DNA of 64,000 nucleotides from Promicromonospora citrea (lineage in GTDB: Bacteria; Actinomycetota; Actinomycetes; Actinomycetales; Cellulomonadaceae). Numbering within the stretch: the stretch's first letter is position 1; the number at the start of each line of letters is the position of its first letter. Below the pieces are notes generated by a model. That model was not told the origin of the DNA and did not search any database. It worked only from the letters and a program-made list of their open reading frames with translations. The stretch covers positions 1-64,000 of the forward strand of contig NZ_JABEMG010000007.1 in assembly GCF_013004695.1 (NCBI RefSeq), given 5' to 3'. This document shows positions 31,750 to 55,442 of this stretch, in pieces. The translations under genes and the position numbers were made by a program.

Positions 31750-31825
31750 CGATCGCTTTTCGACCCGACGTTTCTTGGCTTTGACGGGCCGCAAAGGCGA
31801 GTAACGTCGGGTTGAAAGGCGATCG
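31750..31825 (+). other. Large inverted repeat / RNA hairpin after rdgB
   Basis: Arms of 23 bases at 31750-31772 and 31803-31825 pair completely in the plus-strand RNA using 21 Watson-Crick and two G-U pairs; on the minus strand the same two positions would be A-C mismatches. The 30-base loop contains a smaller CTTTG/CAAAG stem. It may be the rdgB terminator, a stable small RNA, or a miniature inverted-repeat element. It lies in a ~185-bp gap between convergent genes that holds no other feature I can see. Confidence 0.55.
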
Positions 31826-31858
31826 GCGGCGACGCAGGAGCGGCGACGCCGGAGCCGG

Positions 31859-51652: not shown

Positions 51653-52252
51653 ATGCCGAGGATCGTCGACCACGCAGAACGCAGGGCCCAGATCGTCATG
51701 GCGCTGTGGATGGTGATCGCCGAGCGCGGCATCGAGGGTGTGAGCCTGCGCACCGTGGCCGCGGCGGCGGACGTGTCGATGGGGCGGATCCAGCACTACT
51801 TCGGCACCAAGGAGGCCCTCGTGCTGGCCGGGTGCACCGCGCTGATCGACTCCGCGTACGAGGGCTACCTCGGCACCACGGACGACCCGCCGCGGGAGCG
51901 GCTCCTGCACGTCGTGAGCCAGCAGATCCCGCGCGACGACGGGCAGCGCGCCGCCGTCAGCGTCTGGTACGCCTATGTCGCCCGGTCGATCAACGACGAC
52001 GCCGTCCGCCAGGTGCTCGCCGAGGCGCGGCGTGGTGCCGAGGAGGAGTGCGCGCGGCTCGTGCGGGAGGCGAGCGGGGTGGACGGCGCCGTGGCGCTGC
52101 AGCGGGCCCGTCGGCTGCTCGCGCTCGCCGACGGCCTGACGCTGCGCGCGCTCGTCGGCGATCTCGGCGCCACGGAGGCGGTCGCGATGCTGGAGACGGA
52201 GCTCGACACGATCTGCCCCACCACCCGGCGAGGTAGTCACGTGGCGAGGTAG
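51653..52252 (+). CDS. TetR-family transcriptional regulator
   Basis: 199 residues. N-terminal TetR helix-turn-helix: RRAQIVMALWMVIAERGIEGVSLRTVAAAADVSMGRIQHYFGTKEALVLAG. The ligand-binding half is helical with no recognisable specificity. TAAACT (51641-51646) lies six bases before the ATG. The last residues (RGSHVAR) are encoded by the first units of a 16-bp repeat array, and the stop TAG is inside the second unit, so the natural C-terminus may have been replaced by repeat DNA. Confidence 0.9.
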   Translation: MPRIVDHAERRAQIVMALWMVIAERGIEGVSLRTVAAAADVSMGRIQHYFGTKEALVLAGCTALIDSAYEGYLGTTDDPPRERLLHVVSQQIPRDDGQRAAVSVWYAYVARSINDDAVRQVLAEARRGAEEECARLVREASGVDGAVALQRARRLLALADGLTLRALVGDLGATEAVAMLETELDTICPTTRRGSHVAR

Positions 52253-52369
52253 TCGTCCAGCGAGGTAGTCACGTGGCGAGGTAGTCATCCAGCGAGGTAG
52301 CCACGAGTGCTCTTGCCGAGTGACTACTTCGCCACGTGACTACCTCGCCACGTGACTACCTCGGCACCT
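52228..52369. repeat. 16-bp direct/inverted repeat array
   Basis: Five head-to-tail 16-bp units start at 52228, 52244, 52260, 52276 and 52292, each beginning GCGAGGTAGTC (last one GCGAGGTAGCC) and ending alternately in ACGTG, GTCCA, ACGTG, ATCCA, ACGAG. After a 14-bp centre (52308-52321) three inverted units start at 52322, 52338 and 52354 (GACTAC-YTCG-S plus CACGT/CACCT). The array overlaps the end of the TetR gene and stops three bases before the trmB -10 element. RNA from either strand could form a long hairpin. Not CRISPR: units abut with only five variable bases. Confidence 0.9.
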
Positions 52370-52383
52370 CGTACCATCGGGCT

Positions 52384-53214
52384 GTGAGTCAGCCCGTGCC
52401 CGCTTCGCCCGCCGCCTCGTCCGACAGTCCTGCCGACAGCCCCGCCGAGCGCCCGCGCCCGGACGCCGAGGGGCGTCCAGGGCTCGCGGGGTTCCGGACC
52501 CGGCCGGTGTCGTTCGTGCGCCGCTCGGGCCGCCTCACCGACCGGCAGAAGCGCATGTGGGAGACGCGCCGCGACGCCTATCTGATCGACGTCCCGCGAG
52601 CCGTCGCCCGCACCTCGGTCGACCCCGCCTGGGTGCTCGACGCGGAGGCCGTCTTCGGGCGCACGGCGCCGCTCACCGTCGAGATCGGCTCGGGCATGGG
52701 CGACGCCGTCGTCGAGGCGGCGACCACCGACCCGGAGCGGGACCACCTCGCCGTCGAGGTCTACGAGCCCGGCCTGGCCAACACGATCGCGAACGCGGAC
52801 CGGGCGGCGGCCGAGCAGGGCCGCGAGGGCCTGTCCAACCTGCGGCTCGTGCAGGCCAACGCCACCGAGCTGCTGGAGACGGCCCTGCCCGCCGGCGCGG
52901 TCGACGAGCTGTGGGTGTTCTTCCCCGACCCCTGGCACAAGTCCCGGCACCACAAGCGTCGTCTGGTCACCGCCGAGTTCGCGGCCCTCGCCGCGCGCGT
53001 GCTGCGGCCCGGAGGCACCCTGCGCCTGGCCACCGACTGGGCCGAGTACGCCGCGCAGATGCTCGAGGTGCTCGACGCCCATCCGGCGCTCGACAACGCG
53101 CACGGCGCGGGCGGCGCGGCGCCGCGGTTCGAGCGGCGCGTGCTCACCAGTTTCGAGCGCAAGGCGCACCGCGCGGGGCGCACGATCACCGACCTCACGT
53201 ACGTGCGCCGCTGA
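52384..53214 (+). CDS. trmB: tRNA (guanine-N7)-methyltransferase
   Basis: 276 residues. Methylates G46 in the variable loop of tRNA using S-adenosylmethionine. SAM-binding EIGSGMGDAVVEA, LAVEVYEPGLANTI, and the family signature VFFPDPWHKSRHHKRRLV. The N-terminal ~45 residues are a Ser/Pro/Asp-rich extension. GTG start is six bases after TACCAT (52372-52377), placing the promoter immediately downstream of the repeat array; the array may affect its expression. Confidence 0.95.
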   Translation: MSQPVPASPAASSDSPADSPAERPRPDAEGRPGLAGFRTRPVSFVRRSGRLTDRQKRMWETRRDAYLIDVPRAVARTSVDPAWVLDAEAVFGRTAPLTVEIGSGMGDAVVEAATTDPERDHLAVEVYEPGLANTIANADRAAAEQGREGLSNLRLVQANATELLETALPAGAVDELWVFFPDPWHKSRHHKRRLVTAEFAALAARVLRPGGTLRLATDWAEYAAQMLEVLDAHPALDNAHGAGGAAPRFERRVLTSFERKAHRAGRTITDLTYVRR

Positions 53215-55390: not shown

Positions 55391-55442
55391 TGAGTGCGGG
55401 GTGTCCGCCTCTCCGCGCCGGAGGGGCGGACACCCGCACTCA
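55391..55442. terminator. Bidirectional terminator between symporter 3 and FdhF-like genes
   Basis: Inverted repeat from TGAGTGCGGGGTGTCCGCC (starting 55391) to GGCGGACACCCGCACTCA (ending 55442), continuing inward through CTCCG/CGGAG with one bulged base and one mismatch. The outer base pairs include the stop codon of the minus-strand gene. Confidence 0.75.

Follow-up and report, generated by a model that had tools for sequence, protein, structure and literature searches.

A genus-restricted, REP-like family of modular palindromic arrays at gene 3' ends in Promicromonospora, with a probable role as transcript boundaries

The repeat array located between a TetR-family regulator gene and trmB in the soil bacterium Promicromonospora citrea probably belongs to a family of dispersed, REP-like palindromes that is restricted to the genus, marks 3' boundaries, and may function in bidirectional termination or 3'-protection (a probability of about 0.6 for this account as a whole, as judged from sequence). 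The account builds on observations of copy number and architecture, the location at 3' ends, orthologous sites with and without an array, the dialects, and the absence of RAYT. The arrays may terminate transcripts, bind protein, and transpose. The family is best read as modular and fast-changing, and its 16-bp modular architecture, its species dialects, and its lack of a RAYT are new. The window, i.e., the whole stretch of 64,000 nucleotides that was analyzed, contained the following features at this locus:

51653..52252, + strand: TetR-family regulator gene, with its last codons and TAG stop (52250-52252) from array units 1 and 2
52228..52305, + strand: direct arm, five 16-bp units with the core GCGAGGTAGTC and the linkers ACGTG, GTCCA, ACGTG, and ATCCA
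52303..52321, strand not applicable: centre of 19 bp between the two innermost cores
52322..52367, - strand: inverted arm, three 16-bp units, with the outer boundary CTCGGCAC at its end
52372..52377, + strand: TACCAT, shortly beyond the array, candidate -10 element from which trmB would be transcribed without a leader
52384..53214, + strand: trmB (tRNA guanine-N7 methyltransferase), with a GTG start at 52384

In the window array (52228-52367), GCGAGGTAGTC was present five times in direct and three times in inverted orientation, and the spacing inside each arm was exactly 16 bp. Direct cores started at 52228, 52244, 52260, 52276, and 52292, and inverted cores at 52322, 52338, and 52354; three of the eight (cores 5, 6, and 8) carried one mismatch each (GTAGCC, GAAGTAG, and CCGAGG, respectively). 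When up to one mismatch was allowed, 19 core-like matches were detected in the window vs. 1.9 expected, a number that was reached by no shuffle. The core starts, the spacing, and this excess confirmed the 16-bp-period array of five direct and three inverted units reported in the preliminary description, but the innermost cores were 19 bp apart and not separated by a 14-bp centre. The alternation of two linker types (ACGTG and RTCCA) is real in the window array, but the general 32-bp higher-order unit that it was thought to imply was rejected as a local accident, because the 5-bp linkers elsewhere took more than 25 forms, of which ACGTG was merely the commonest. In folding, which had been proposed as a check, the strand performed far better than shuffles both as RNA (-115.8 kcal/mol, z = -10.8) and as DNA (z about -10). 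Stop codons were present in all six frames within the window array, a consequence of TAG and TGA on opposite strands and of a pitch of 16, which equals 1 modulo 3.

The core occurred 137 times on each strand of the 4.96-Mb genome (290 contigs), vs. 1 and 0 matches for the reversed-pattern control, and tandem core pairs at 16 bp were found 57 and 63 times vs. 0 in the control. At least 60 arrays with 358 units were parsed from sampled loci in this genome, and this census represents a sample of the surroundings of pattern hits in a draft assembly. The usual plan was a direct arm facing an inverted arm, and 17 of the 60 arrays were one-armed, including two that were cut by an insertion sequence (IS) at a contig end. 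The element can be written as CCCCGCCGAGGTAGTCA-N4 ... centre ... N4-TGACTACCTCGGCGGGG; it commonly spanned 60-190 bp, with CCCCGCCGAGGTAGTCA usually forming the outer unit and TGACTACCTCGGCGGGG the opposite end. Each arm was a row of 16-bp units, each composed of a core of 11-12 bp that hardly varied and a variable linker of 4-5 bp, so that arm length changes in 16-bp steps; unit number indeed varied among arrays by exactly such steps. Core columns were 92-100% identical over the 358 units, except for the first base alone, which was less conserved and differed in the outer unit, and the linkers varied widely across arrays. Pairing of linkers between the two arms was slightly above that of shuffled linkers (0.647 vs. 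0.571), with a slight excess over chance in three data sets, and some arrays showed compensating changes in both arms (L032). In the commonest centre, which reads GTCACCCAGCGCG...CTGGGTGAC, the innermost cores were 29 bp apart. The same core, end sequence, and centre (CACCCAGCGCG...) recurred at unrelated loci. The expectation of further intergenic copies with a variable number of units was therefore borne out by dispersed copies, variable unit number, and location at 3' ends.

Based on gene calls from a home-made codon-usage caller, 55 arrays of this genome could be assigned to gene pairs, of which 35 were convergent, 16 tandem, and four divergent, and this convergent excess was highly significant (binomial p about 1e-11, relative to 13 of 61, or 21%, convergent pairs in the window). 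The array start was located within -50 to +25 bp of a gene 3' end in 52 of the 60 arrays, and the same was true of 32 of 34 arrays in other Promicromonospora, with 23 convergent and no divergent cases. Between tandem genes, the array adjoined the end of the upstream gene and not the start of the downstream gene. The stop codon was usually within about 20 bp of the array, or the TAG of the core itself served as the stop; 19 genes in this set stopped at the TAG of unit 1, 2, or 3. A strong stem directly downstream of a stop codon, a feature by which intrinsic terminators are recognized, was thus present. However, no U-tract followed the stems in the array sequences that were read, and these ended in GGCGGGG or similar. 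G-U pairs were not in excess on the sense strand at tandem sites (22, vs. 28 A-C mispairs), which gave no sign of pairing selected at the RNA level; selection on an RNA-only hairpin was rejected on this ground. Uninterrupted stems of at least 15 bp were found in 29 of 38 convergent spacers of G011, vs. 8% of shuffles and 12% of tandem spacers, with a weaker excess in G001 (11 of 25 convergent spacers).

At the TetR-trmB locus, the claim that the array supplies the last codons and the stop of the TetR gene was upheld, with the TAG at 52250-52252 inside unit 2. In G011, this site was empty, with an intergenic gap of approximately 30 bp without the repeat, and TetR ended in TGA at the point where the window reads through into the array. 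In those other relatives whose TetR end was readable, the stop was located in unrelated sequence. Together with more than 250 other copies in the genome, this identifies the array as a repeat and not as an ordinary TetR C-terminus. The GTG at 52384 was taken as the trmB start on the basis of conservation in relatives, both of the MSQP- start and of the CCTCGTAC block ahead of it, and the position of TACCAT relative to this start is conserved as well, consistent with a candidate -10 element. The suggested attenuator acting on trmB found no support, as most arrays lie between convergent genes.

Tandem core pairs were confined to Promicromonospora (P. iranensis, P. panici, and P. soli) in a scan of 84,980 species, a list that may omit records of the window's own genome. 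A degenerate pattern had no match in 395 other sampled genomes of the order, and spread beyond the genus was therefore rejected. Three viral contigs fitted the degenerate spacing, but these were low-complexity or short-period repeats and not arrays, which led to the rejection of a phage origin. Within the genus, a second dialect with GTAGAAC instead of GTAGTC was identified. Its tandem pairs were absent from G000, numbered 127 and 96 on the two strands in P. panici (G008) and 29 and 36 in G011, and were fewer in G005, G006, and G010. Both dialects have the first nine core bases, the pitch of 16 bp, and the arrangement in two arms in common, and their linker vocabularies are similar. P. iranensis harbored arrays at the same junctions as P. 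citrea with different units, and G011 contained arrays of its own dialect (GTAGAAC) at three of the same sites and a simple, single-unit-like hairpin at another (L100). The array at L088:4604 was absent from P. iranensis. Two P. iranensis strains, whose flanks were 94% identical, differed greatly in their arrays at one site and incrementally at another. No clear target-site duplication was recognized in the comparisons of empty and filled sites. At the L120 convergent junction, a long hairpin was present in 12 of 13 species, in several unrelated sequence families, and in the 13th species the region was partly N with a hairpin still visible. Such retention of a hairpin at a junction, despite turnover of its sequence family, speaks for a functional role of the hairpin.

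An IS30-like element interrupts some of the arrays. At six contig ends of the P. citrea genome, an array unit ran straight into the terminal repeat GGCGGATTCAACTGGTGGTCGCAACACC or GGCGGATTCAATCGGTGGTTGCAACACC:

L079:4037, L082:1-120, L085:3021, L089:1-120, L104:3081, and L115:8-127: junctions of array unit and IS, own-genome contig ends

The entry point was the same in all six junctions (GCGAGG-TAG-TC), and these may represent as few as three insertions. Both types of junction contained TAG, as expected from a 3-bp duplication, and the insertion thus apparently duplicates TAG. The coding end of the element (35 aa) was 55-62% identical to annotated IS30-family transposases (tblastn vs. plasmids), and NCBIfam gave no name for this fragment. 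A complete copy was not found in the contigs fetched, and an additional, limited sample of contig starts and small contigs contained no IS ends.

No description of the array repeat was found in open PMC papers. A known structured RNA was rejected because no Rfam match exceeded the gathering score, and hits of the miRNA and UTR types were all sub-threshold. DNA uptake sequences are frequently arranged as inverted pairs at terminators. Those of Neisseriaceae (PMC3630211) resemble the array core in having a short conserved core with species dialects, whereas the core described here clusters within 16-bp arrays located at 3' ends. GTAG-tagged REPs are palindromes of 20-40 bp that are accompanied by a RAYT and in which the terminal GTAG remains unpaired (Di Nocera et al., 2013; PMC3733652). 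They are located less than 20 bp from ORF 3' ends, favor convergent or unidirectional spacers, and often provide the TAG that serves as the stop (PMC3733652). The array family is similar in comprising dispersed extragenic palindromes near 3' ends with TAG stops, and the content of GTAG-tagged families is likewise often species-specific (PMC3733652). It differs in that GTAG is located inside every 16-bp unit, where it lies opposite the complementary sequence of the second arm and is base-paired in the stem, and in that the arms are rows of 16-bp units and not a single 20-40 bp stem-loop. Furthermore, the RAYT domain (Y1_Tnp, Pfam PF01797) had no match in any of 13 genomes of the genus, including that of P. 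citrea, with a control profile matching in 5 of 14 genomes. A RAYT-driven REP was therefore rejected, and the REP-type transposase that had been expected nearby was not found. Of the earlier proposal of a terminator or mobile repeat, the dispersed copies, variable unit number, 3'-end sites, and empty site in a relative stand, and the REP-type transposase does not. Many near-identical, dispersed palindromes that are extragenic and located at 3' ends correspond to REPs in the broad sense; given these common habits and the departure from the GTAG-tagged definition, the family is classified as REP-like in that broad sense only.

REPINs (2011; PMC3116915) are inverted repeat pairs that spread as one miniature mobile unit, which the arrays resemble. 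The arrays differ from these in the absence of a RAYT, in their tandem arms of variable length, and in the occurrence of one-armed forms. Term-seq in the GC-rich actinobacterium Streptomyces clavuligerus revealed transcript 3' ends at U-lacking, I-shaped GC stems, as well as bidirectional termini (PMC8269248). The array stems are likewise strong GC stems without a U-tract, and the S. clavuligerus ends offer a plausible precedent for their action; those ends were not described as dispersed families with 16-bp modular arms or species dialects. With respect to the IS30-like element, IS1397, IS621, and ISKpn1 similarly enter an extragenic palindrome at a fixed position (Tobes and Pareja, 2006; PMC1525189). 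The families listed there as entering REPs are IS3, IS110, IS4, IS256, and IS5, and not IS30.

In the proposed mechanism, an array that is transcribed from either side would fold into a very stable stem, which would end or protect the transcript and insulate the facing genes. New copies would arrive at existing 3' hairpins, or take their place, through copying or recombination via some mobilizing engine, and the arms would afterwards lengthen or shorten by slippage. Given TAG on one strand, usually TGA on the opposite one, and a pitch of 16 (1 modulo 3), every reading frame is closed by three units, so that an array landing at the end of a gene would do little harm. At the TetR-trmB locus, the element would have landed on the TetR stop region, provided a new stop, and may now part TetR from trmB. 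Slippage could also be imagined as the only process, with ordinary terminators expanding in place and no movement between loci, and this would be compatible with the many arrays that keep their position between species, the exact 16-bp steps in unit number, and the single-unit-like hairpin of G011 at L100. However, independent slippage cannot account for the recurrence of one core, one end sequence, and one centre at unrelated loci, and the TetR-trmB site is empty in G011; this explanation is already disfavored and very improbable. The empty sites in relatives, the stop codons supplied by the repeat, and the six IS ends at the same core base would also be expected of a selfish or passive miniature element without a host function, which is tolerated at 3' ends as selection removes insertions elsewhere and is also a preferred landing site of the IS30-like element. 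Such an element seems quite unlikely, however, as long hairpins of different families are found repeatedly at one and the same junction across the genus and long stems are strongly overrepresented in convergent spacers, which suggests a demand for a 3' hairpin at such sites.

The boundary reading has points against it, including the lack of a U-tract and of a G-U excess, a core that is far stricter than arm complementarity, the one-armed and the four divergent arrays, and the absence of a recognized target-site duplication. A core that is kept as linkers and pairing drift, with G-U pairs not favored, indicates that the core word either matters or was recently copied. A sequence-specific host factor, such as a termination factor, a nucleoid protein, or an RNA-binding protein, might thus bind the core in DNA or RNA, and the arrays would serve it as multi-site docking platforms; the palindrome would then be secondary and the dialects would reflect co-evolution of the factor. 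Near-identity of the core columns beside free linkers, one-armed arrays, a similar linker vocabulary in both dialects, and the missing G-U excess agree with this explanation. It is nevertheless unlikely, since no candidate protein was found, core uniformity could equally stem from recent copying and homogenization, and the arms exhibit compensating changes (L032) and linker pairing above chance. A more specific form, in which a dedicated, species-specific factor reads the 11-12 bp word at a 16-bp pitch at dozens of loci to mark 3' ends, with word and reader changing together (GTAGTC vs. GTAGAAC), is tentative and unlikely. A role of the array hairpins in bidirectional termination or 3'-protection is the most likely interpretation.

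The spread of bacterial extragenic palindromes in the absence of a RAYT, and their preference for 3' ends, still await an explanation, and Promicromonospora provides a tractable case, with countable 16-bp steps, clear dialects in close species, empty and filled orthologous sites, unrelated hairpin families that replace one another at a given junction, and an IS whose entry point in the core is a single base. If the hairpins terminate or protect transcripts, this GC-rich genus would maintain the boundaries between its convergent genes by means of a mobile set of parts with rapid turnover.

Other long hairpins were also observed in convergent spacers. In 400 kb of G011 (L138-L157), these formed further dispersed families, including one with GAAGCAACCTCGG in six convergent spacers and one with GAGTGC...GCACTCAGCGG in five. 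The window contained a long hairpin at 55392-55441 (GAGTGCGGGGTGTCCGCC...GGCGGACACCCGCACTC) that resembles the GAGTGC family of G011, and another at 31750-31830 (CGATCGCTTTTCGACCCGACGTT...AACGTCGGGTTGAAAGGCGATCG), both in convergent spacers. At the L120 junction of G012 (L166), a hairpin was located upstream of the L120-orthologous gene; it contains the word GTTGGTCGAGCTTGTCGAGACC, which may be common in the spacers of actinobacteria. G001 (L212-L231) harbored repeated hairpins of the form GACTTCGGTCGGTTG...GAGATCGGTC in convergent spacers, and a word related to these was present at the L120 junction of G003.
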